Assembly: GCF_004368405.1 (NCBI RefSeq)
Contig: NZ_SBJH01000046.1
Span: 54,653-118,652 of the forward strand
DNA: 64,000 nucleotides
Direction: 5' to 3'
From: Olivibacter sp. XZL3
GTDB taxonomy: Bacteria; Bacteroidota; Bacteroidia; Sphingobacteriales; Sphingobacteriaceae
This document shows, in pieces, positions 17,312 to 64,000 of this stretch; position 1 is the first letter of the stretch, and each line of letters begins with the position of its first letter. A program made the translations under genes and the position numbers. The notes under the pieces are model-generated. The model saw only the letters and a program-made list of their open reading frames with translations, was not told the DNA's origin and searched no databases.

Positions 17312-19756
17312 ATGTTAAAAAACTACATCAAAATTGCCTGGCGAAGTCTTGTGAAGCACAAGGTCTATTCCGCCATAAAAGTCGGAGGCTTTGCCTTTAG
17401 TATCGCTGCCTGTGTCCTTATCAGCCTATATATCTTGCATGAATTGAGTTATGACAAAACCTACCCTAATGCGGATCGCATTTATCGGATCGTAGGTGAG
17501 TTCAACGATCAAGGGAAAGTGATGCGCGGAACAGCATTTCAAGCGCCCTTAAGTAAAGCAATAGCGGCTGATTTCCCCGAAGTAGAGCACATCGGGCGAT
17601 TATTGCCTAATGCGCTCTTTTATGGAGCAGGAAGTAACCAAATCACAACCGAAGATAATCCAGAGAGCGTTTACGAGCAAGGCTTTACCTATATGGATCA
17701 GGAGTTGTTAGACATGCTACAGCTTCCCATGGTTTATGGAGAACGGGCGACCGCACTTACCGACCCGAACACTTTGGTCTTGACGAAAAGTAAAGCGAAA
17801 AAGTACTTTGGACAAGGCAATCCCGTTGGAAAAACCATCTATTTAAACGGCGACAAAACCAGTCCCTATACCATCAAAGGAGTCGTAGACGACCTTCCTT
17901 CTACCTCCCATTTGAACGCTTTTCAATTCTTTCTTACCCTTAAAGGCGTGGAATTTTATCCCGGAGAGCAAGAAAACTGGGGCGCCACTAACTATCCCAT
18001 GTACCTTAAACTCAAAAAGGGAACATCGGTAGAACAGTTCGAGAAAAAACTGACTAAAACCGCTCAAGACCATTATTGGGTTCCTAATCTGAAACAAACG
18101 GAAAACAAGAGAGCGATTGAAATCTGGAGTGCTATTACGCTGCACTTACAGCCCATAAGAAAAATACACCTTTATTCTTCAGACATTGAAGACTATAAGC
18201 AAATTCAGCAGGGAGACATCAAACTTATCTGGCTATTTGGCGGTATTGCAGCTTTCATCTTATTGATTGCCTGCATTAATTTCGTCAACCTTTCTACAGC
18301 AAAATCGGCTAATCGGGCAAAAGAAATTGGCCTCCGTAAAGTCGTGGGCTCTTATCGAAGTAGTTTGATCGCCCAATTACTTGCGGAATCGGTTTTATAC
18401 AGCTTATTATCCTTTATGGTCGGTTTGCTGTTTGCTCGACTGTTACTCCCCCTGTTTAACAGTCTGTCTGGCAAAGCGCTCCTTTTTCCCTGGACCGACT
18501 GGCTATTTTTTCCGATCGTCCTTGGTGCCGCATTGATCATCGGATTGATTGCCGGAGTTTACCCTTCCTTTTATCTTTCTGGCTTTCGGCCTATTGCCGT
18601 ATTAAAAGGCCAAATGAGTGAAGGGTCTAGGGCTCCCATCCTGCGGAATAGCCTCGTTGTCTTTCAATTTGTTGCCTCCATACTGCTCATTATCGGAACT
18701 TTAGTCATTAATCGCCAAATGAACTTTATCCTTCACAAAAAGGTCGGCTTTGATAAAAACCATGTGATGATATTACAGGGAACAAACACGCTGGGCGACC
18801 AGATCAAAACACTGCGGACTGAAATCGAAAAACTCCCCCAGGTAAAAGCGGCTTCTGTGAGCGATTATTTGCCCATCCGAATGGAGGGAATCAAACGAAA
18901 CGGCAATGGCTTTTGGAAAGAAGGGAGAACGAAAGAAGATCCCGCTGTTAGCACTCAATTTTGGGAAATCGACGAAAATTATATCTCGACTTTGGGCATG
19001 AAACTAGTGGCCGGCCGAAATTTTTCAAAAGACCTGGCTACAGATTCCCAAGCGGTTATTATTAATCAAAAATTGGCAAGGGAGCTCGGATTGATAGATC
19101 CCGTCGGAGCCCGGATAACAAATGGAATGGCATTCACTGTCATCGGCGTTGTAGAAGACTTTAATTTTGAATCGCTCAAGGGCGATGTGGAGGGCGTCTG
19201 CATGAGCTTAAGCAACAGTCCGAGTATGCTTTCTATTAAGGTAAACGGCCAAGATATGCAAGCGGCCGTTCGGGAAATTTCCAGCCTTTGGAAGAAATTC
19301 GCACCTGCGCAGGCCATTCGTTATACTTTTCTGGACGAAGGGTACGCCGCAATGTATGCAGATGTCCAACGTACCGGCTATATCTTCACGGGTTTCGCCG
19401 TGTTAGCTATTTTTATTGCCTGTTTGGGCTTATTCGGATTAGCCGCTTTTATGACCGAGCAGCGCACAAAAGAAATCGGCATCCGGAAAGTTTTGGGTGC
19501 CAGCGTAGAAGGGATTATTGGATTACTTTCCAAAGATTTTATCAGGTTGGTGTTTGTCGCCATTGTCATCGCCTCACCATTAGCGTGGTGGGCGATGAAC
19601 CAATGGTTGAGTGATTTTGAATACCGAGTAGAGGTAGAATGGTGGGTATTTGTATTAGCCGGAGCCTTAGCAACAACCATAGCGCTTTTAACCGTTAGTT
19701 CACAAGCCATCAAGGCAGCAGTAGCGAATCCGGTGAAAAGTTTGAGGAATGAATAA
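17312..19756 (+). CDS. MacB/FtsX-type ABC permease 1
   Basis: This 814-residue protein is a full-length permease built as a duplicated half. Helix 1 spans about 21-42, the first MacB-type periplasmic core domain about 43-300, and helices 2-4 lie at about 307-330, 359-380 and 393-420. Helix 5 is at about 446-468, a second periplasmic domain runs about 470-680, and helices 6-8 lie at about 686-715, 742-763 and 776-797. Each half carries the family's cytoplasmic motif: KEIGLRKVVGSYRSSL near 333 and [16 protein letters not shown] near 722. MacB-type proteins couple to an ATPase and move substrates by mechanotransmission across the periplasm rather than through a membrane channel. No ATPase gene is nearby. 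It is the only gene of its unit and ends NPVKSLRNE. Confidence 0.93.
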   Translation: MLKNYIKIAWRSLVKHKVYSAIKVGGFAFSIAACVLISLYILHELSYDKTYPNADRIYRIVGEFNDQGKVMRGTAFQAPLSKAIAADFPEVEHIGRLLPNALFYGAGSNQITTEDNPESVYEQGFTYMDQELLDMLQLPMVYGERATALTDPNTLVLTKSKAKKYFGQGNPVGKTIYLNGDKTSPYTIKGVVDDLPSTSHLNAFQFFLTLKGVEFYPGEQENWGATNYPMYLKLKKGTSVEQFEKKLTKTAQDHYWVPNLKQTENKRAIEIWSAITLHLQPIRKIHLYSSDIEDYKQIQQGDIKLIWLFGGIAAFILLIACINFVNLSTAKSANRAKEIGLRKVVGSYRSSLIAQLLAESVLYSLLSFMVGLLFARLLLPLFNSLSGKALLFPWTDWLFFPIVLGAALIIGLIAGVYPSFYLSGFRPIAVLKGQMSEGSRAPILRNSLVVFQFVASILLIIGTLVINRQMNFILHKKVGFDKNHVMILQGTNTLGDQIKTLRTEIEKLPQVKAASVSDYLPIRMEGIKRNGNGFWKEGRTKEDPAVSTQFWEIDENYISTLGMKLVAGRNFSKDLATDSQAVIINQKLARELGLIDPVGARITNGMAFTVIGVVEDFNFESLKGDVEGVCMSLSNSPSMLSIKVNGQDMQAAVREISSLWKKFAPAQAIRYTFLDEGYAAMYADVQRTGYIFTGFAVLAIFIACLGLFGLAAFMTEQRTKEIGIRKVLGASVEGIIGLLSKDFIRLVFVAIVIASPLAWWAMNQWLSDFEYRVEVEWWVFVLAGALATTIALLTVSSQAIKAAVANPVKSLRNE

Positions 19757-20511: not shown

Positions 20512-20615
20512 CAGGCAATGGAAGCGTGGGAGTTCAACCACTAAATCGAGATCATCAAGTTAAAACCATAAGCCAATCGGCGAATAGCTGAAACGCCTCT
20601 AGAAAAACAAATGAT

Positions 20616-34850: not shown

Positions 34851-34952
34851 TTTGCTGGTTTAGCCGCAATCGTCATCGCCGTGCTCACTGTAAGTTATCA
34901 GTCGATCAGAGCAGCCATAGCGAATCCGGTGGATAGTTTGAGGAATGAATGA
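34851..34952 (+). pseudogene. 3' scar of a permease gene
   Basis: The frame FAGLAAIVIAVLTVSYQSIR followed by AAIANPVDSLRNE and TGA is the last helix and tail of a permease; nothing upstream is permease-like. The stretch around its stop (GGTGGATAGTTTGAGG through TGAATGATTTTAAG) is also present at the end of permease 5 (34380-34415), so the scar and permease 5 share their 3' end. It marks a further gene that once followed permease 5. Confidence 0.8.
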
Positions 34953-48279: not shown

Positions 48280-48304
48280 ACGATGTTTTACGTTGTAAGT
48301 AATA
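48232..48304 (+). repeat. 73-bp direct repeat, copy 1
   Basis: This copy covers the last 16 codons of permease 9 and the first 25 bases of spacer. It matches 49003-49075 at 70 of 73 positions and flanks the toxin-antitoxin module. Confidence 0.85.
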
Positions 48305-48337
48305 GGTTGTAGGAAGAGGAGGCCCCGGTTTCAGAGG

Positions 48338-48723
48338 TCACCAAACAAGAGCGACATTGTATAACTTAAAGTTTTTGTCCTTCGAAATAATTTGTAGATT
48401 GTTTGTCAAAGATTGACAAATTATAATTCTGTCAAAAGGGTCGCGATGGTGGAACGGTAATGTGGAGATCTTTATTGTATCGTCAAGACTGATAGGTAAA
48501 AGTTGGAAACCATTTAAGGAGATGATATCTTCAATCCGCGCAAAAGGCTCACTTAATTCGAGCTTTTAAGGCTGATCTTGACGGCGATCTCCCATAAACT
48601 GGCGATGCTAACGTAGTTCACCGCTCCTTTCCTTTCGATATTCTTCTTTGCCTTCGCAGATAGTTGGCTATCACCACTTAAAAACCAAATAAAGGTATGC
48701 GTGTCAAGCAAATTATGCTGCAT
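48338..48723 (-). pseudogene. PIN-domain (VapC-type) toxin, frameshifted
   Basis: On the - strand from the ATG at 48723 the frame reads MQHNLLDTHTFIWFLSGDSQ and then VSIASLWEIAVKISL before a TAA shortly after. Restoring one base in an A run near the break continues it as KLELSEPFARIEDIISLNGF, FHHRDPFDRIIICQSL and a stop at 48338. The PIN acidic residues are present (Asp in LLDTHT, Glu in LWEI, Asp in HRDPFDR). It overlaps the antitoxin stop by one base (TAATG). A genuine single-base deletion or a homopolymer sequencing error would both fit. Confidence 0.8.
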
Positions 48724-48938
48724 TACGTATATTCTTTGAAATCCTCTAGCGGTTCGTCAAAATCGTCACGCATTTTGAACATTCCCTTTGCACTACCAAA
48801 TTTTGGAACTTTTTGTTGCTGAGGCCTCTCTCGGTTCTTTTGTGCTTTTGTCACCAAAAAATCGATAAAATCTGCCACCTCTGCCCTCATATGTTCTGGA
48901 AGAGATTCCAATTTACTATATAACAGACGATTATCCAT
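48723..48938 (-). CDS. DUF2281-type VapB-like antitoxin
   Basis: This 71-residue protein has an N-terminal helix pair typical of DUF2281 antitoxins (LYSKLESLPEHMRAEVADFI, then DFLVTKAQ) and a flexible charged C-terminus (FKMRDDFDEPLEDFKEYT) that in relatives wraps the PIN toxin. A canonical Shine-Dalgarno AGGAGG lies six bases before the ATG, unusual next to genes that have none, and TATCTTTG at 48965-48958 (- strand) is a good -7 box. With the toxin frameshifted, this may be an orphan antitoxin. Confidence 0.8.
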   Translation of the reverse strand: MDNRLLYSKLESLPEHMRAEVADFIDFLVTKAQKNRERPQQQKVPKFGSAKGMFKMRDDFDEPLEDFKEYT

Positions 48939-48944
48939 AACATT

Positions 48945-48965
48945 CCTCCTAAGATATCAAAGATA
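48945..48965 (-). promoter_or_regulatory. -7 box and Shine-Dalgarno of the antitoxin gene
   Basis: On the - strand TATCTTTG (48965-48958) is followed after seven bases by AGGAGG (48950-48945), six bases before the ATG. It is the only strong Shine-Dalgarno that I noticed in the window. Confidence 0.55.
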
Positions 48966-49002
48966 GTAAAAATTATTCTACCAGTGCATGGGAAGATAAT
49001 TT

Positions 49003-49075
49003 ATAAAAGCCGCTCTAGCCGATCCGGTAGATTCGTTAAGGGACGAGTAAACGATGTTTTAAGTTGTAAGTAATA
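49003..49075 (+). repeat. 73-bp direct repeat, copy 2, carrying a permease 3' scar
   Basis: Bases 49003-49050 read IKAALADPVDSLRDE and TAA, the permease tail, with nothing permease-like upstream. The match to 48232-48304 continues for 25 bases past the stop, with three differences in total. The toxin-antitoxin module lies between the copies, replacing the body of whatever gene ended here. Confidence 0.85.
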
Positions 49076-49092
49076 AGTCATCAGATCTTCAA

Positions 49093-55027: not shown

Positions 55028-55972
55028 CTACCCGCCAATGTCAACAGCTATTTTACCTACAAAACCACCTTTCTGCTTCATCGAAAGGGCTTCGGTCAAT
55101 TGACCGAGGTTAAACACTTTTTCGATGTGTAATTTTAAATCCCCACGCTCTATAATGTCTCTTAATGCGCGGAGGTCATTCGCCTTCGGCTTAACGAAAA
55201 CAAATTTCATATTAGGCTCGAACACCACATCAACAGCAGTTTTCACTAATCCCTTTAGGGTGTTCATTTCTCCTCTTGTAGTAACAAAAAGGCCTTGCTC
55301 ATTTAAATGATGCTTTAAATCGCTATACGTATACATACCGGCGGCATCAAATATGAGATCGAAGCGGGCACCAGAAGGGATTCGCTGATTCTGATAGTCG
55401 ATCACTACATCGCAACCAATTGATTTGGCGTAGCTTCGATGCTGTTCGCTGCACAATCCACTAATATGACAGTCTATCGTGCTCGCGAGTTGAACCGCAG
55501 CAGATCCGACACCGCCTGTACAACCCGTAATCAACACATTTTCCTTTCCTTGCAGTCGGCCGACTTTAAACAAAGCCTGATACGCCGTCAACCCAACCAA
55601 GGGAATCACCGCGGCCTCTAAGTAAGATAGCTTTTGTGGCTTTAATGCCACCTGACTGGCGTCTACCGCCAACTCTTCGGCATAGGCGCCACCTTTCAGC
55701 GCAGCAAGCATCCCGTATACTTCGTCTCCCTCTTTAAAGAGTCGACTTCTGGATTGGATAACTTTTCCGCAGAAATCACTACCGATCACCTGATCAGAAA
55801 ACCCGGCGCTCGACAGCAGCGATTTTCCGTTTTGCACCATCACGTCGATGGGATTTACCGATGACGCATAATTCCGGATTAAAACTTGTCCGTTTTTAAT
55901 TGACGGACTTACGAGTTCCTTAATTTTAAATTTTGCGCTTGCGCCTTTCTTTTCTACTACTGCAGCTTTCAT
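55028..55972 (-). CDS. MDR-family NAD(P)-dependent reductase
   Basis: This protein has 314 residues from the ATG at 55972 (MKAAVVEKKGASAKFKI), the normal start of this family; the ATG at 56008 would add twelve atypical residues. It is a medium-chain dehydrogenase/reductase of the quinone-oxidoreductase or RTN4IP1-like branch. Visible segments are NYASSVNPIDVMVQNG, GSDFCGKVIQSRS, the cofactor loop VLITGCTGGVGSAAVQLAST near 145-165, and DLIFDAAGMYTYSD. The catalytic-zinc Cys/His ligands and the structural-zinc loop are absent, so reduction of quinones or enals is likely. Confidence 0.88.
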   Translation of the reverse strand: MKAAVVEKKGASAKFKIKELVSPSIKNGQVLIRNYASSVNPIDVMVQNGKSLLSSAGFSDQVIGSDFCGKVIQSRSRLFKEGDEVYGMLAALKGGAYAEELAVDASQVALKPQKLSYLEAAVIPLVGLTAYQALFKVGRLQGKENVLITGCTGGVGSAAVQLASTIDCHISGLCSEQHRSYAKSIGCDVVIDYQNQRIPSGARFDLIFDAAGMYTYSDLKHHLNEQGLFVTTRGEMNTLKGLVKTAVDVVFEPNMKFVFVKPKANDLRALRDIIERGDLKLHIEKVFNLGQLTEALSMKQKGGFVGKIAVDIGG

Positions 55973-56215
55973 TATGTTGTCGACATCCTTCCCTATAACA
56001 ACATGCAAATTAAGGAATTGTGCAAGGGTGATTGTTGCCTGTATCTCATTTTGTGATTGTTTTTGTTATCTTTTTGTAAAAGAACCCGCAATAAGTAGGT
56101 ACAAAAATGTTTTTATGCTCAAAAGCCCACATGCCCGCATAACTTGAAATAAAGATTATAATCAAATTCGCAAAAAATATTTTTAAACCTTAAATAATTA
56201 AACCTGAAAAATCGA

Positions 56216-56245: not shown

Positions 56246-56992
56246 ATGAAAAAACTTTTATTATTTTTTATGGCTTTTTTAGCCACTGGGGCTTCCTATG
56301 CCCAAAATGTTGATACCGACTCCCTTTCATTAAAAGCAACCGCCGGCAGTTTTGCTACCGAATTAAACTTTAATCCTTTTAACGGAGAGATCAGTTTAAA
56401 CAACTCGCTCAATCAAATCAAAGTCCGATACTTCGCTAAATCGGACCTTGCCTTACGCTTAGGCTTTAATGTCAGCACAGACAATGCTCTTACAGACAAC
56501 CAGCAGCCCTATGGTACCGACAACTATCGTTTTAAAGACAAAAAAAACAGTACCACCATTGGCGTCAACGCAGGTGTAGAGAAACATTTCAAAGGAACGC
56601 GCAGGTTATCACCCTATGTAGGGTTTGACCTTACCTTCACTAACAAGTCGATGAGCCAAGAACTTATCGAAGGGGAGTCTATTTTGGACGTCAAAGGAGG
56701 CTGGTATCAAACTTCTTATAACAGCAACGGTTATCCCATCCGATCCGTTGCAGGATACGGCTTCAAACGCTATGGAGCAGCCCTTATATGCGGTTTTGAT
56801 TTCTATATGGCTGCTAACTTTTTCTTCGGTTACGAGTTTAGCTTAGGTTTTGATCAAACGGATTTCGATGAAATTACCTTGACCCAACGCGGAAATCCAA
56901 CGTCTACCCCGAATAATTACACGGAAAACTCCAGTAGTTCTTTTGGTCCAAGAGTAATGAATGGCGTTCGTCTCGGTTATATTTTAAGATAA
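56246..56992 (+). CDS. outer-membrane beta-barrel protein
   Basis: This 248-residue protein has a clear signal peptide (MKKLLLFFMAFLATGASYA, cleaved before QNVDTD). The rest alternates polar and aromatic residues as in small porin-like barrels (VRYFAKSDLALRLGFNV, GVNAGVEKHFKGTRRLSPYV, GYEFSLGFDQTDFDEITL). The last strand is GVRLGYILR. It resembles the many OmpW/OprF-barrel-like proteins of Bacteroidota. The IPT lipoprotein gene starts six bases after its stop, so the two are co-expressed and may work together at the cell surface. Confidence 0.8.
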   Translation: MKKLLLFFMAFLATGASYAQNVDTDSLSLKATAGSFATELNFNPFNGEISLNNSLNQIKVRYFAKSDLALRLGFNVSTDNALTDNQQPYGTDNYRFKDKKNSTTIGVNAGVEKHFKGTRRLSPYVGFDLTFTNKSMSQELIEGESILDVKGGWYQTSYNSNGYPIRSVAGYGFKRYGAALICGFDFYMAANFFFGYEFSLGFDQTDFDEITLTQRGNPTSTPNNYTENSSSSFGPRVMNGVRLGYILR

Positions 56993-56998
56993 ACATAC

Positions 56999-58663
56999 AT
57001 GAAAAAATTAGTATCAACCAACACCTTTTGGCTGTTCATCTGTAGCCTAAGCTTTTGCTTAAATGCTTGTAAAAAAGATCTTGATAAACATCCGCAAATG
57101 CTAACGGAAGATCCGATAGCGATCAACTTAAACACGGTTGAATTCAAAGGAAAAATTGTTGAAAAAGGTGAATTCAATGTGATCGACTATGGATTTATCT
57201 ATGCCGCTTACCCTAACATCGACGATCAAAATGGAATTAAAGTTTCTTTGGGAAACAAGGCTTCCGTCGGCGACTTCAGTACCCTTGTTTCTAATGTACT
57301 GGATAACATATACGGCAGTACCGTGTATGTCCGATCCTACCTGACGAATAGCAACGGTACGGCTTATGGCTCGGTGAAACAGGTGAGTTTGCCGATTCCG
57401 TCAACCTCCTCTGTAAGTCCGACAGCAGGAAAGGCCGGAGATCTTATCACCATCTCCGGTCAATTTCATACCACAGATACCGCTGCAATCGCCGTATTTT
57501 TTATGGATAAAAAGGCCACTATTAAGACCTTGCAACAGGACAAGATCGTAGCAGAAGTACCAACCGGTATTCAGGCCTCTCACAACAGCCAAATCGGCAT
57601 AAGCTTACAGATCGGGCAGCAAATATATCAAGCCAGTTACGACTTTAGAATACAAGCACGCATTAAAGACTTTACCCCCAAAACAGGTGCTATTGGCGCG
57701 GCAGTTACCTTAATCGGAGAAAACCTTCCAAGTTATTACTACGGAGATCAAGGTATCAAAATGTACTTTGGAAATGTGGAGGCTAACTTTATGTATCTGG
57801 ACGTTCCTACCTATGTAGTTCCGCCTACCATAGAAGAAACATCCAAAGTATATATTGAGATTAATGGAGAAAGGTCGGAACTTCCCGGCGAATTCAAGGT
57901 TTTGGCGCCAACAGTCTCTGCTGTTTCGATTAATGCCGGCCTACCGGGCGAAACCATCGTAATCACGGGCACCGATTTTAGTACAGACTGGGCAAATCTG
58001 CCGAAAGTGAAACTTGGGAGTTATGACTTAGACGTATATGATGTCCGTCAAAACAGTATAACAGCAGTAATTCCCGCCAGCATTCCTTCCGGCACTTATG
58101 CGTTAACCGTGACTTCGGGACCGCATACCGTCACCGCCAATAACGCGTTTAAAGTAGAAGGTTATTCGGCATCTAGCTTCAGTCCGAAAAAAGGAGCCAT
58201 CAACAGCCTTGTAAAAATCAACGGTGTTTTTAATGCCAACAATTATTATGAAGTGAGTTTTGGCTCGACACGGGTGGGCGCCACCGCTACTTCCAAGAGT
58301 GTTTTGGAAGTAAGCGTTCCTTACGGGCTTCCTGCAGGCAAAGTAAAAATCACCGTTCACTTCCCAAATAAGGACATTAAACTTGCTGATGATTTCGAAG
58401 TCATAGGCCCATCCATCAGCTCTTTTTCTCCCTCTTCGGGCGTTCCCGGAACAGCCGTTACCATCACCGGCGAAGGGTTCGCAGCAGACACCTGGAATAC
58501 AGTGGTGAAATTTGGAACGGTTGAAGCCACCATTACGTCGATCACAGACACGCAAATCAAGGTTTTGGTTCCGTCGAATGTCAACATGGGCGCAATGAAA
58601 ATAAACGTCGTATCAAACGGCCAAACAGTGACTAGCAAGGATGATTTCACTGCTATCAACTAA
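56999..58663 (+). CDS. IPT/TIG-repeat surface lipoprotein
   Basis: This 554-residue protein has a lipoprotein signal peptide with lipobox LNAC (Cys at about 24) followed by KKD. A first domain (about 28-130) is beta-rich (IDYGFIYAAYP, VYVRSYLTNSNGTAYGS), like the fibronectin-like segment of similar lipoproteins. Then come five IPT/TIG modules, each with an SP-x-G-x-x-G-x-x-VTI-x-G pattern: VSPTAGKAGDLITISG, FTPKTGAIGAAVTLIG, SINAGLPGETIVITGTDF, FSPKKGAINSLVKING and FSPSSGVPGTAVTITGEGF. Such proteins in Bacteroidota bind glycans or form extracellular scaffolds; no SusC/SusD pair is here. A strong terminator follows. Confidence 0.88.
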   Translation: MKKLVSTNTFWLFICSLSFCLNACKKDLDKHPQMLTEDPIAINLNTVEFKGKIVEKGEFNVIDYGFIYAAYPNIDDQNGIKVSLGNKASVGDFSTLVSNVLDNIYGSTVYVRSYLTNSNGTAYGSVKQVSLPIPSTSSVSPTAGKAGDLITISGQFHTTDTAAIAVFFMDKKATIKTLQQDKIVAEVPTGIQASHNSQIGISLQIGQQIYQASYDFRIQARIKDFTPKTGAIGAAVTLIGENLPSYYYGDQGIKMYFGNVEANFMYLDVPTYVVPPTIEETSKVYIEINGERSELPGEFKVLAPTVSAVSINAGLPGETIVITGTDFSTDWANLPKVKLGSYDLDVYDVRQNSITAVIPASIPSGTYALTVTSGPHTVTANNAFKVEGYSASSFSPKKGAINSLVKINGVFNANNYYEVSFGSTRVGATATSKSVLEVSVPYGLPAGKVKITVHFPNKDIKLADDFEVIGPSISSFSPSSGVPGTAVTITGEGFAADTWNTVVKFGTVEATITSITDTQIKVLVPSNVNMGAMKINVVSNGQTVTSKDDFTAIN

Positions 58664-58797: not shown

Positions 58798-58834
58798 TGT
58801 TCATTTCCGAACGAAACCTGTTCGCTTTCGGACA
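58798..58834 (+). promoter_or_regulatory. paired dyad operator 7
   Basis: TGTTCATTTCCGAACG (58798-58813) and TGTTCGCTTTCGGACA (58819-58834) are separated by 5 bp. The first unit ends ACG rather than ACA, the only such deviation among fourteen units. Confidence 0.78.
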
Positions 58835-58886
58835 CTTTTCGGCACGACAAACACACAAACAGCTAATAATCAAGTTATTACTATTT

Positions 58887-58902
58887 TGGAAACGTTTTGG
58901 TA
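58887..58902 (+). promoter_or_regulatory. sigma-54-like element 7
   Basis: TGGAAACGTTTTGGTA keeps GG-N10-G, starts 53 bases after operator 7 and is very like element 5. It lies only about 20 bases before a permease 3' scar, not directly before a start codon. Confidence 0.5.
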
Positions 58903-58920
58903 TAGATTTTTAAGTCCTTT

Positions 58921-59135
58921 TACGTGCCGCTTTAGCAAATCCTGTGGATTCTTTGCGGAATGAATGATTTGGTTACTCGTTATTAGTTGTTAGTTATTCG
59001 CTATTCCTGAAGGACGAACAACTAATATATTGATACTTGAATAAAAAACTATCCGTCGATTGGCGGATAGCTGCACAGCTCTGAAAAACGAATTAGTATG
59101 ATTCAAAATTACTTGAAAATCGCTTGGCGGAATCT
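58921..59135 (+). repeat. 215-bp direct repeat, copy 1
   Basis: This copy spans a permease 3' scar, a spacer with a CTATCCG/CGGATAG hairpin (59049-59070), and the first 13 codons of permease 11. It matches 61439-61655 with only a handful of differences and one small indel. Confidence 0.88.
58923..58967 (+). pseudogene. 3' scar of a permease gene
   Basis: RAALANPVDSLRNE and TGA (58923-58967) are the permease tail with no gene body before them. The scar lies directly after sigma-54-like element 7, so the gene that this promoter first served has been deleted except for its last 15 codons. Confidence 0.85.
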
Positions 59136-61485
59136 TTGGAAAAACCGAGGGTATTCGGCACTTAACATCGGAGGTCTGGCTATCGGAATGATGGCCTCCA
59201 TCGTGATAACATGCTGGATTCAAAGCGAAATGACCTTCGACCGCTTTTATAGTACAACAGATCGCCTTTACCAGGTTTATAGTGAGGCAACCTTCGAAGG
59301 AAAAAAACACGCTTGGGGTAATACCGCAGCCATTCTTGGACCAGTGTTGAAAGAAGAGCATGCTGAAGTTGAAGAGACCGTACGGATTTCTTCCCTGACT
59401 GACTTCAATGTCTTACGTGTAGGTGACAAGAAATTCATTCCCAAAGGCCTAGCAGCAGACTCTTCCTTTTTCCGCCTTTTTGATTTCAAGTTTCTCTCTG
59501 GAGACACGAGAAACCCCATAAAGTCAGTCAATGATATTGTTATTACAGCCTCTTTAGCGCAAAAATTTTTTGGAAAAGAGAACGCCGTAGGAAAGGTGAT
59601 CGCTTTTGATACGCTAAGCAACATGCTTGTTAAAGCAGTAATTGAGGACATACCTGACAATTCGCGATTTAGAGGAACGGAATATTTTTGTTCATGGCCC
59701 CTTTTAGAGCGTTTAGGTTGGGTCAGTTATTCTTCTTGGGGCGCGAACAACCATCAAACCTTCGCTCTATTGAAACCACAGGCTGACATCGCCCATGTCA
59801 ACAGGAAAATTAAAAACTTGATCCAAAAGCACTCTGCAAATCAAAATCAAACGTCTATCTTCTTGCATCCCGCAAGCAAATGGAATTTATATAACCGATC
59901 CGAAAACGGAGAAATGGTCGCAGGCAGATTAAACACCGTTCGTTTATTTATTGTCATTGCTATATTTATCTTGTTAATCGCCTGCATCAATTTCACCAAC
60001 CTAAGTACCGCCCAAAGTGAAAAAAGAGCGAAAGAAGTCGGTGTGAGAAAGGTCGTCGGCGCGCGCAAAAACATGCTTATTAACCAATTTTTGACAGAAT
60101 CAATTCTTTTGTCCTTTATCTCGGGAGTACTCGCTATTGTACTTACAATCGTCGTATTGCCCTTTTTTAACCAGATCGTCGGCAAACAGCTTCAGGTTCC
60201 GACTGCTGATCTATCGTTTTGGTTATTATTGGTCTCCTTTATTTTGTTAAGCGGTATACTCGCGGGTGTTTACCCTGCTTTTTTCCTCTCTTCCCTTAAA
60301 CCCATAAAAACGCTAAAGGGAACTTTTGTCTCCGCAGGCTCGGTCTTTAATCCCCGCAAGGTATTGGTGGTTTTACAATTCACGTTTTCGATTACCCTTA
60401 TTATCTGTACACTCATCGTCAGCAAGCAAATCCGGTATGCCCAAGAGCGAGACAGCGGCTACGATAAAAACCAGCTTATTTATACTTCATTGGCTGGCCA
60501 AACAGATAAACACTATGAAGTCATCAAACATGAGCTTTTGAACAAAGGCGCAGCAATTGCCGTCTCTAAATCATTGGGACCAATTACTAGATATAGCAGC
60601 AACGGATGGGGCTTTAGCTGGCCCGGCAGCAAACCAGAAGATTATGATGTAGTGTTCGATCGCTTGAGCGCAGATGCCGACTTTACGAAAACAATGCAGG
60701 TCAAGCTTTTGGCAGGACGAGACATCGATATTCAAAAATTCCCATCAGACTCAACTGCCATATTACTCAATCGCACCGCAGTGAAACGTATGGGCTTGAA
60801 AGATCCCTTAGGCGTGGAAATTGTTCAAGGTAAGGGAGAAAAGTTTGCGGAAACCTGGCATGTGGTGGGCGTTATTGAGGACTTTATCCTTACTTCTCCC
60901 TACGATCCGGTTGAGCCACTGATTGTTTGCGGTCCAAGCAGTTGGTTCAATTACATGCATATCCGCTTAAATCCAGCAAATTCGATCCGCAAAAACATGG
61001 AACTAAGCGAACAGGTTTTTAACCGGTACAATCCAAATTATCCATTTGAGTACACGTTCGCTGATGAGGCTTATGCAGAGAAGTTCAAAAATGAACAGTT
61101 TACTGCCAACTTAACGGCTATATTTTCCGCTTTAGCTATTTTAATCGCCTGTTTGGGACTTTTCGGTCTAGCAGCCTTCACTACGCAACAACGTTCAAAG
61201 GAAATTGGTATCCGTAAAGTATTAGGAGCTTCCGCAACAACCATCACCTTACTCATTTCAAAGGGCTTCGTACAATTGGTTATGATCGCTTTTTTGATCT
61301 CCATGCCTATCGCTTGGTGGACAATGAGCAAATGGTTGAATAGCTTTAGTTATCGAATCGAAATACAGGGACTGGTTTTCCTCATAACGGGAACGCTTTC
61401 TTTCGCAATTGTAATCTTGACCGTTGGTTATCAAGTTATACGTGCCGCTTTAGCAAATCCTGTAGATTCTTTGCGGAATGAATGA
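59098..61485 (+). CDS. MacB/FtsX-type ABC permease 11
   Basis: This 795-residue paralogue begins MIQNYLKIAWRNLWKNR. Motifs are KEVGVRKVVGARKNML near residue 311 and [16 protein letters not shown] near 700; the C-terminus is NPVDSLRNE. It is now the first gene after operator 7, about 195 bases downstream of the promoter-like element, with a permease scar between. It is bounded by the 215-bp direct repeat. Confidence 0.93.
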   Translation: MIQNYLKIAWRNLWKNRGYSALNIGGLAIGMMASIVITCWIQSEMTFDRFYSTTDRLYQVYSEATFEGKKHAWGNTAAILGPVLKEEHAEVEETVRISSLTDFNVLRVGDKKFIPKGLAADSSFFRLFDFKFLSGDTRNPIKSVNDIVITASLAQKFFGKENAVGKVIAFDTLSNMLVKAVIEDIPDNSRFRGTEYFCSWPLLERLGWVSYSSWGANNHQTFALLKPQADIAHVNRKIKNLIQKHSANQNQTSIFLHPASKWNLYNRSENGEMVAGRLNTVRLFIVIAIFILLIACINFTNLSTAQSEKRAKEVGVRKVVGARKNMLINQFLTESILLSFISGVLAIVLTIVVLPFFNQIVGKQLQVPTADLSFWLLLVSFILLSGILAGVYPAFFLSSLKPIKTLKGTFVSAGSVFNPRKVLVVLQFTFSITLIICTLIVSKQIRYAQERDSGYDKNQLIYTSLAGQTDKHYEVIKHELLNKGAAIAVSKSLGPITRYSSNGWGFSWPGSKPEDYDVVFDRLSADADFTKTMQVKLLAGRDIDIQKFPSDSTAILLNRTAVKRMGLKDPLGVEIVQGKGEKFAETWHVVGVIEDFILTSPYDPVEPLIVCGPSSWFNYMHIRLNPANSIRKNMELSEQVFNRYNPNYPFEYTFADEAYAEKFKNEQFTANLTAIFSALAILIACLGLFGLAAFTTQQRSKEIGIRKVLGASATTITLLISKGFVQLVMIAFLISMPIAWWTMSKWLNSFSYRIEIQGLVFLITGTLSFAIVILTVGYQVIRAALANPVDSLRNE

Positions 61486-61655
61486 TTTGGTTACTCGTTA
61501 TTAGTTGTTAGTTATTCGCTATTCCTGCAAAGGGCGAACAACTAATATATTGATACTTGAATCAAAAACCATCCGTCGATTGGCGGATAGCTGCACAGCT
61601 CTGAAAAACGAATTAATATGATTCAAAATTACTTGAAAATCGCTTGGCGGAATCT
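61439..61655 (+). repeat. 215-bp direct repeat, copy 2
   Basis: This copy covers the last 15 codons of permease 11, the spacer, and the first 13 codons of permease 12. The offset from copy 1 (about 2.52 kb) equals one gene plus one spacer. Confidence 0.88.
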
Positions 61656-64000
61656 GCGCCGAAACCCTGTACAAGCATCTGTTCATATTATCGGTCTTTC
61701 TATCGGCATTAGCGTCACTCTCTTCGTTGCCCTATGGGTGTGGGATGAGCTTTCATTTGACAAACAACACAAGCATTACGAACGCATTGCGAAGGTGGCC
61801 CTTACCACGCGACAGCATCACGAACTGCATACATCAACCTTGGTTGCTGCACCGCTGGCGGAAGGCTTACGAACGACCTTTAAGAATCAATTTGAATCAG
61901 TTGCTCTGGCACGTGTTACCGGTGAGCATGTACTCCGCTTTGACGAGCAGATCCTGAAGGCGACTGGTAAATTCATTGAAGCTGAAGGAACGGCTATCTT
62001 ACCAATGGTAATGTTAGGAGGGATCCGAAACGGACTCCAAAAGCCAAATAACATCATGCTTTCGGAAAGCATGGCGAGGGCAATATTCGGGAACCTAGAC
62101 CCTATCGGAAAAGTAATCAAGATCGATGATACCATGCTCGCATCCGTCAGCGGTGTTTATGAAGACTTTCCCCATAATTCCAGCTTTTACGGCGTAAAAC
62201 ACCTCCTTCCGTGGGCACTTCTGACGGCTTCCAACAAAGATTTCAAGCGCCTTGAAACAAGCTGGGAATTCAACTGGTTCGAAGTCCTGGTTGCTTTAAA
62301 TCCGGCAACAACGATGGAAAAAGCCTCTGCTGAAATCAAAAACTTTCAACGTCACGTTTTAAAAGACCAACCGGAACGGTCTACCGAGCTGCCGACCTTA
62401 AGCCTGTACCCGATGGAACAATGGCACCTCTATAACGAGTGGGAAAATGGCAAACCGACAGCGGGCATGCTAAAATTTGTCCGCCTTTTTGCTTTGATCG
62501 GTCTTTTTGTTCTGCTCTTAGCCTGCGTTAACTTTATCAACCTAAGTACCGCCAACGCACAGAAACGTGCGAAGGAAGTCGGCGTGCGGAAAGCAATCGG
62601 TTCAGATCAGAAGCAGTTAATGCTTCAATTTCTCTGTGAATCCGTTTTCATCACCGGTCTTGCTTACGTGTTGGCCTTAGTTTTGGTGTCCTTCGGCCTG
62701 CCATACTTCAACACCTTTGCGGAGAAATCGCTTCATTTACCCGTTAACAAGCTCAATTTTCACTTTCTGGGGATGGCTTTTGTCCTATGTGTCGGTATAC
62801 TGGCCGGAACATATCCGGCGCTTGTTCTGGCATCGTTTTCTCCAATCAGCAGCCTTAGAAATGTGAAAATTCCGCAAAGTGGATTCCAGCTGCGCCAAGT
62901 TTTAATTGTTTTTCAATTTACGGTTACCGCCGTGTTGATGATCGGAACGTATGTGATCCACCAACAAATTAATCATGCAAAAAACCGACCGGTAGGATAT
63001 AACCGGAACGACTTGATCAGTTTTCATCTGAACAAATTTAACGGGACAAACGAAGCCTTACATCGTGATCTATTGGCGACAGGTGTCCTTACCTCGACTT
63101 GCCAAGCCACAAGTCCGGCAACAGACGTATGGTCGCATACATCCGGTTTTCATTGGGAAGGAAAAACGGCGGGTTTCAAAGACGATTTTTCTTTATTGGC
63201 AGTGTCCCCCAGTTACGGCAAAACCTTAGGCTGGGAAATAGTCGACGGACGGGATTTTTCCAAAGATTTTCTCAGTGACTCCCTTGGAATTATCGTTAAC
63301 GAAAGCGCTGTAAAATATATGGGAATCAAAGACCCCATCGGGAAGACCGTGCAGTGGAAGGATGAGACCTTTAATAACGGCAGCTATACCATTATCGGTG
63401 TGATTAAAGACATGGTCATGCAATCACCCTATGAGCCCGTTCATCAAACGATTTATTTTATGCAGCCTGCAGCTAATTTTCTCATTGCGCGTTTAAAACC
63501 CGGCATTCCGGTTCAGGATGCCTTACAAAAAATCCGAACCGTATTCCGCCAGCATATACCAAATCAAGCGTTCGATGTTCGCTTTGTTCAGGAGGAATTT
63601 GACCGTAAATTCTCTTTTGAAGAAAAGGTTGGCGACCTAGCCTTCATTTCTACGTTACTCACTTTATTCATCAGCTGTTTGGGTATACACGGACTTATGA
63701 CGCTGCTTAGCGTCCAGCGTGCGAAGGAGATCGGGATTCGCAAAGTATTGGGAGCTGCTCTTAGCGATGTATTGATTCTGCTGTCTAAAGACTTTGTCAG
63801 GCTAGTGCTGATTGCGGTGCTCATTGCATCGCCGATAGCCTGGTGGGCCATGAAAAAATGGTTGGAAGACTTTACCTATCGTGTAGAAATACAGTGGTGG
63901 GTCTTTATGCTTGCTGGAATATTCGCTTTGGTCATCTCTCTACTCACAGTTTGCATTCAAGCTATCAGAGCCGCTTTGGCTAATCCTGTAGATTCTTTGC
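61618..64000 (+). CDS. MacB/FtsX-type ABC permease 12 (cut by window edge)
   Basis: The frame is open from the ATG at 61618 (MIQNYLKIAWRNLRRNP) to the edge, 794 codons plus one base. It ends within AIRAALANPVDSL, so only about three residues and the stop are missing. Motifs are KEVGVRKAIGSDQKQL near residue 319 and [16 protein letters not shown] near 701. Helix 1 is followed by a Trp-rich WVWDELSF. It is the second gene of the unit under operator 7. Its first 13 codons are nearly identical to those of permease 11 and then diverge sharply. Confidence 0.92.
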   Translation, partial: MIQNYLKIAWRNLRRNPVQASVHIIGLSIGISVTLFVALWVWDELSFDKQHKHYERIAKVALTTRQHHELHTSTLVAAPLAEGLRTTFKNQFESVALARVTGEHVLRFDEQILKATGKFIEAEGTAILPMVMLGGIRNGLQKPNNIMLSESMARAIFGNLDPIGKVIKIDDTMLASVSGVYEDFPHNSSFYGVKHLLPWALLTASNKDFKRLETSWEFNWFEVLVALNPATTMEKASAEIKNFQRHVLKDQPERSTELPTLSLYPMEQWHLYNEWENGKPTAGMLKFVRLFALIGLFVLLLACVNFINLSTANAQKRAKEVGVRKAIGSDQKQLMLQFLCESVFITGLAYVLALVLVSFGLPYFNTFAEKSLHLPVNKLNFHFLGMAFVLCVGILAGTYPALVLASFSPISSLRNVKIPQSGFQLRQVLIVFQFTVTAVLMIGTYVIHQQINHAKNRPVGYNRNDLISFHLNKFNGTNEALHRDLLATGVLTSTCQATSPATDVWSHTSGFHWEGKTAGFKDDFSLLAVSPSYGKTLGWEIVDGRDFSKDFLSDSLGIIVNESAVKYMGIKDPIGKTVQWKDETFNNGSYTIIGVIKDMVMQSPYEPVHQTIYFMQPAANFLIARLKPGIPVQDALQKIRTVFRQHIPNQAFDVRFVQEEFDRKFSFEEKVGDLAFISTLLTLFISCLGIHGLMTLLSVQRAKEIGIRKVLGAALSDVLILLSKDFVRLVLIAVLIASPIAWWAMKKWLEDFTYRVEIQWWVFMLAGIFALVISLLTVCIQAIRAALANPVDSL

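Follow-up and report, generated by a model that had tools for sequence, protein, structure and literature searches.

A permease tail scar and a shared junction repeat in operon 7, a variable slot of an Olivibacter permease array

The window, the whole stretch of 64,000 nucleotides from Olivibacter sp. XZL3 that was analysed, covers an array of 13 permeases spanning positions 17312 to 66775 in window numbering, the last permease lying past the window end. The source genome is a 5.36-Mb draft of 122 contigs, and the window sits within a contig of 141 kb. Operon 7 and its surroundings contain the following features.

55028..56008, minus strand: zinc-type dehydrogenase flanking operon 7, present in the own genome (G000) and in the congeners G001, G002, and G004
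58798..58834, plus strand: palindromic operator pair (58798-58813 and 58819-58834), presumably serving operon 7 as upstream activating sites, from the sequence and a pattern count
58887..58901, plus strand: sigma-54-type motif TGG-N10-GT, at position 69 from the first base of the second operator site
58920..58967, plus strand: tail scar, the last 15 codons of a permease with its stop, 44/45 bases identical to the permease 11 tail
58968..59097, plus strand: spacer of 130 bases, apparently either a copy taken from the 11/12 junction or homogenised with it, with an imperfect palindrome (arms 58981-58999 and 59009-59027)
59042..59097, plus strand: hairpin leader element abutting the start codon, about the last 55 spacer bases (stem 59050-59069)
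59098..61485, plus strand: permease 11, 795 aa, with MacB_PCD and FtsX domains; its first 39 bases belong to the repeat
61436..61655, plus strand: second repeat copy by self-BLAST, made of permease 11 tail, spacer, and permease 12 head
61618..64000, plus strand: permease 12, continuing to 64011, past the window end

The succession of operator and promoter 7, a 15-codon permease tail, a spacer, and the intact permease 11 is seen in the sequence as the original prediction described it. The near identity that it noted between 58921-59135 and 61439-61655 is recovered by self-BLAST over 58918-59135 and 61436-61655, with 96.4% identity in 220 aligned columns, 6 mismatches, and one 2-base gap. This junction repeat is the top scorer among 33 self-matches in the 64-kb window. 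A search of the whole genome with the 215-base query gives 10 matches, which are strong at two places only, the third-best place being the permease 12 tail (52 bases at 90%). Unbroken identity of the scar to the permease 11 tail begins at 58921; the other 12 array tails match it at 27 to 40 of 45 bases, with permease 12 at 40/45 and the remaining 11 at 27 to 35. At the other end of the repeat, the heads of genes 11 and 12 match at 38 of their first 39 bases, compared with at most 31/39 for the other array heads (permease 9 aligned out of register). The first 13 codons of permease 11 occupy 59098-59136, and the right end of the repeat falls where genes 11 and 12 begin to diverge, the two proteins having only 38% of their residues in common.

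The copies are offset by 2518 to 2520 bases, which corresponds to one gene (2388 bases) plus one spacer (132 bases), the single repeating unit that had been proposed. Unequal crossing-over or deletion between tandem copies, suggested as the origin, explains this 2.5-kb offset but not the join between promoter and tail. At the left breakpoint, the promoter leader is joined to the tail without extended homology, whereas crossing-over yields whole units and never a promoter followed by a tail, so that a further event is required, one of whose ends lies in the leader. The promoter-tail fusion of operon 7 is a real rearrangement scar; a promoter that runs into an isolated permease tail means a loss or rearrangement of gene content at this place. 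Given the match of the scar to the permease 11 tail, any lost gene would have been a copy of permease 11, unless its tail was overwritten later.

The operator pattern TGTYCGNTTTCGGACA has 22 matches (16 places) in the window, compared with 2.86 expected; the first operator site of operon 7 is detected by a looser score alone. Within 95 nt past the last operator site, TGG-N10-G[CT] is found in 17 of 29 leaders, compared with 1.6 in simple shuffles, and 15 of these 17 occurrences lie at position 68-71, counting from the first base of the operator site. The strict form TGG-N10-GC occurs in 2/8 leaders of the own genome only. The operon-7 leaders of G002 and G004 lack TGG-N10-G[CT] where it normally lies, which counts against the reading that we prefer below. 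A search of the own genome for the sigma-54 activator domain gives 9 matches, including three strong genes, all on contigs other than that of the array, and one weak match (25.3 bits) on the array contig. Elsewhere, a similar array (G204) has an adaptor, an ATPase, and a sigma-54 response regulator next to it, and another (G297) has a histidine kinase and a sigma-54 response regulator. Permease 11 matches MacB_PCD with 87.2 bits (cut-off 27) and FtsX with 79.1 bits (cut-off 25.5), and the domain search found no ATPase domain within its protein. The operators, the motif at a fixed distance, the domains, and the neighbouring genes suggest that the array operons are most likely a sigma-54-activated, export-type system.

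The final part of the spacer holds a hairpin, so the 215-bp repeat carries an array leader element besides the scar. In the window, the hairpin leader is found at 59042-59097, 61562-61617, and 20562-20615. Copies related to the one before permease 11 precede permeases 2 and 12 here and several permeases in G001, G002, and G004. Among 12 typed copies of the stem, 81% of the cells pair, compared with 69% in shuffles (0/500 reaching 81%), and three pairs are altered on both sides, a number reached by 14 of 500 shuffles; the stem changes compensate in part. Of 399 family genomes, three contain a strict hairpin pattern; these three belong to this genus, and 6/6 places are within permease arrays. 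The copies of the own genome do not satisfy the strict pattern. Searching two stretches of spacer and leader against the Rfam RNA families gave nothing near a gathering score. The G002 operon-7 leader has two hairpin copies in tandem. The spacer stretch 58969-59005, here forming part of the imperfect palindrome, belongs to a dispersed intergenic repeat found across the genus (GTTATTAGTTGTTAG-like), with many places in G001 and G002. Since the spacer is a member of this repeat family, similarity from leader to leader need not mean common descent, which also weighs against the preferred reading.

The operon-7 slot was compared in five genus members, namely the own genome and the congeners G001 to G004. 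It is flanked by the dehydrogenase on the left in four of the five and by permease 13 on the right in all five, the permease 13 counterparts of the four congeners being 54-81% identical; in G003, no dehydrogenase lies within the 20 kb examined left of permease 13. Permease 12 has orthologs at the same locus in G004 (77% aa) and G001 (59%). The slot contents are as follows.

G000: two extra genes (56246-58663, between the dehydrogenase and operon 7), then permeases 11 and 12
G004: a permease-3-like gene, permease 12, and next a permease-7-like gene that has an operator to itself
G001: X1, X2, X3, permease 12, and next, again with a separate operator, a permease-7-like gene
G002: Y1 and Y2 (84% and 82% to X2 and X3)
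G003: beside permease 13 just a 3' piece of 162 codons

The content thus differs in each of the five genomes, and operon 7 is a variable slot among sigma-54-type permease operons. The counterpart of permease 3 lies in operon 7 in G004 and in other operons in G000, G001, and G002, indicating that permeases move between operons. At 10 loci outside the genus, the best permease 11 homolog is the first, second, third, or fourth permease of its operon; the content is shuffled, and its position says nothing about which gene came first here. In the nearest genome compared, the one with permease 12 at 77%, the best permease 11 match reaches 50% and lies at another place. The closest match in 399 sampled family genomes is 62% aa in another genus (G092), a scan of genome contigs for permease 11 gave three loci (best 55%), and a plasmid search for it gave no match. 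Horizontal gain of permease 11 was considered from composition and is without support, because its GC (0.427) and GC3 (0.446) are within the range of the other 12 permeases.

Further scars were sought by a tail-motif scan of the congener arrays and a profile scan of 74 leaders. At loci other than operon 7, two such tails follow an operator and a promoter motif. One is a leader of promoter, tail, and permease in G004 (near C1:1,271,340), where about 16 readable codons adjoin a GG-N10-GC motif; this scar may extend further upstream in decayed form. Downstream of this leader (C1:1271388-1275229, L104), a permease is split by a minus-strand gene of 431 aa. The other is in G001, where a decayed tail stands ahead of a permease-9-like gene, with one base missing and the frame broken. 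Both tails most resemble permeases other than the next one, as the loss of a distinct first permease predicts. In another genus (G041), the interval from the ATPase gene to the first permease contains a tail of 15 codons plus stop (38.1 bits, L078_4383). Together with its spacer and the following head, this scar aligns to the permease 2/3 junction of its own operon (116 bp, 77.6%), and among the three tails of this operon the scar is nearest to that of the second permease (38/45), which suits duplication followed by deletion as well.

The operon-7 leaders of the congeners are less clear. In that of G002, roughly 8 codons of a decayed tail precede a similar spacer (local score 61, shuffled maximum 33), but the tail is graded as only a probable remnant, since its profile score of 5.4 bits is under the best of 1480 decoys (11.2), a point against the preferred reading. 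The same holds for the finding that this leader matches another tail of its own operon better than it matches the G000 leader. A tail remnant in the G004 operon-7 leader (3.0 bits) is doubtful, and in the G001 operon-7 leader no tail was found, which again counts against that reading. A further tail motif (G003_24) lies 58 nt past a permease stop. The profile matches L076_1364, G004_45253, L077_8604, and L080_12306 were discarded as tails of the permease immediately upstream, as was L081_178, where the upstream gene is cut by the stretch end, and G000_5777 (6.9 bits) was rejected because its upstream frame reads on as permease.

Two further orphan tails lie within the window.

34866..34952, plus strand: scar A, orphan permease tail; 34899-34959 matches the tail of the preceding permease (61 bp at 87%)
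49003..49078, plus strand: scar B, orphan permease tail; 76 bp at 95% to the permease 9 tail

At 48280-49078, about 0.7 kb separates permease 9 from the 95% copy of its tail, resembling an insertion that duplicated the gene end; the minus strand carries what we take, by eye, to be a DUF2281/PIN-type toxin-antitoxin pair. The three clean-edged scars, at 58921, at 49003, and in G041 (L078, 15631-15677 on the stored strand), start within about one base of the same codon, the sixteenth from the gene end counting the stop; with three cases, this may be chance or a preferred breakpoint. Among the matches listed, orphan pieces in frames under 200 aa comprise at least 10 tails and at least 7 heads. 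Two tails were dropped as belonging to a nonsense-interrupted gene (G000 C112) and a frame-broken gene (G003 C15), and six heads as belonging to three frame-broken genes, one gene with an inserted gene, and two genes at contig ends. After these exclusions, at least 8 unpaired tails, not counting the shorter scars from the tail-motif scan, stand against at least 1 unpaired head among the matches listed, and this excess of orphan tails over orphan heads, among the matches listed, is only suggestive. The single unpaired head among them lies just upstream of another head (G002 C1:801309-801392).

The placement of repeats was surveyed by self-BLAST of seven array stretches from five genomes (plus strand, at least 45 bp and 84% identity, limits that we set ourselves). 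None of the 31 high-identity repeat pairs falls in gene bodies, which account for 35-55% of the sequence in the four genomes counted. Both ends lie in permease ends or leaders in 24 of the pairs, and seven have an end elsewhere, three of these ends being orphan tails. This near identity outside the gene bodies supports recombination specific to junctions but is not proof of it, because the limits were ours, because the pairs share sites and cannot be counted as independent, and because dispersed spacer repeats and selection acting on conserved gene ends explain part of the placement.

The reading that we prefer, and judge to be right about as readily as wrong, is that the first gene of operon 7 was lost, leaving a tail scar that was later homogenised with the 11/12 junction. 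The promoter-proximal permease would have been lost through breaks in the leader just past the promoter and in the last 16 codons of the gene, giving promoter, tail, and spacer, a product similar to the usual junction between two permeases. At a later time, ectopic recombination in this lineage may have homogenised the scarred leader with the 11/12 junction, either by gene conversion or by insertion of a permease-11 unit at the scar through homologous recombination, covering the tail, the spacer, the hairpin leader, and the first 13 codons before permease 11. Because the two copies differ by about 3% whereas permease 12 of G004 is only 77% identical in amino acids, homogenisation would postdate the split of G000 and G004. 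This divergence also argues against the view that such a change is to be expected inside one culture. The order and mechanism of the two steps are inferred, and the data are explained as well by a gained permease 11 or by a leader that was replaced. The original prediction held that operon 7 had lost its first permease; content was indeed lost or rearranged, scars recur, and the slot varies, but neither this reading nor the alternatives below demonstrate the loss of a distinct, unique permease.

A rather unlikely history, which completes the idea of the original prediction, is that crossing-over at the heads of genes 11 and 12 duplicated permease 11 with its junction in tandem and that the promoter-proximal copy was then deleted from leader to tail, so that nothing unique was lost. 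It accounts for the scar matching tail 11, for the nearly identical heads, and for an offset of gene plus spacer, and the G041 scar with its match to the junction of its own operon speaks for it too, but it requires two events, and in G004 and G001 the tail that best matches the scarred leader is not that of the next permease. Replacement of the leader in one step, by copying a 215-bp fragment of tail 11, spacer, and head 12 in front of permease 11 with no permease lost, is distinctly unlikely in our judgement. It would be anchored by homology near the start codon and by little or none on the promoter side. A single event would account for both junctions of the copy and for a right end that stops where genes 11 and 12 diverge, and permease 11 homologs lead their operons in G092 and G022 and are the first permease behind the ATPase in G297 (3/10 loci). 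The recurrence of tail scars from other permeases before first permeases is left unexplained by it.

That the tail segment is retained for a function, for instance by acting as a short leader that is translated or structured, appears highly improbable. Three clear promoter-tail leaders occur in three species, with tails of about 10 to 20 codons (boundaries partly by eye) and, in two of the three, a tail stop 149 and 162 nt past the last operator site, whereas the orphan tails in positions other than ahead of a first permease vary between 16 codons and a 94-codon open frame (partly by eye). However, three clear cases and one probable case compare with 34 operator-preceded permease starts (the G004 case being outside the 34), a deletion breaks the frame of the G001 tail, and neither a start codon nor a conserved structure is demonstrated for the tail. 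Misassembly of the repeat, conceivable in a genome of 122 contigs, is scarcely credible: the copies are set apart by 6 mismatches and a 2-base gap, their flanking sequences are unique within a 141-kb contig, and a similar anatomy is seen in G004, a one-contig assembly.

The scar belongs to a broader pattern of shuffled permease operons. As a concrete trace, it records that paralogous transporter operons in this family alter their content yet keep their promoters: the permeases in the slot beside a conserved promoter differ from one compared species to the next, and the high-identity repeats lie outside the gene bodies. More speculatively, and in our view improbably, the arrays could be plug-in systems in which the module of tail, spacer, hairpin, and head acts as a recombination portal and the promoter-proximal scar as a landing pad for swapped permeases. 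If this were true, permease 11 would be an excisable cassette between 215-bp direct repeats, with a measurable rate of excision predicted from them. Its excision would leave promoter 7 and the same leader driving permease 12, and the common start codon of the operon-7, scar B, and G041 scars would mark a preferred breakpoint. Transporter repertoires could then shift fast under one regulator.

Permease 11 resembles the ADOP family of duplicated permeases (TIGR03434) in being matched over its full 795 aa but differs in failing the curated cut-off, with 302.7 bits compared with 622.3; likewise, each of four array permeases scanned has an ADOP match along its whole length below the family cut-off. 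The titles and abstract openings found by literature searching do not mention such arrays; an excerpt of a Dyadobacter paper (PMC11573002) contains the wording "duplicated orphan permease". With the MacB/DarB-type ABC exporters, the system has in common the MacB_PCD and FtsX domains of permease 11 and the ABC ATPase and outer membrane efflux genes downstream of the array, although permease 11 is far under the MacB and DarB equivalog cut-offs.

Tandem paralog arrays lose genes and are homogenised via RecA-type recombination, through unequal crossing-over and gene conversion. The array studied here departs from this picture in that near identity is limited to the junction while the whole proteins 11 and 12 are far apart, and plain crossing-over does not make the fusion of promoter and gene tail seen at operon 7. 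It conforms to the picture in its tandem paralogs, in a nearly identical repeat at an offset of one gene plus spacer, and in a number and order of permeases that vary between species.
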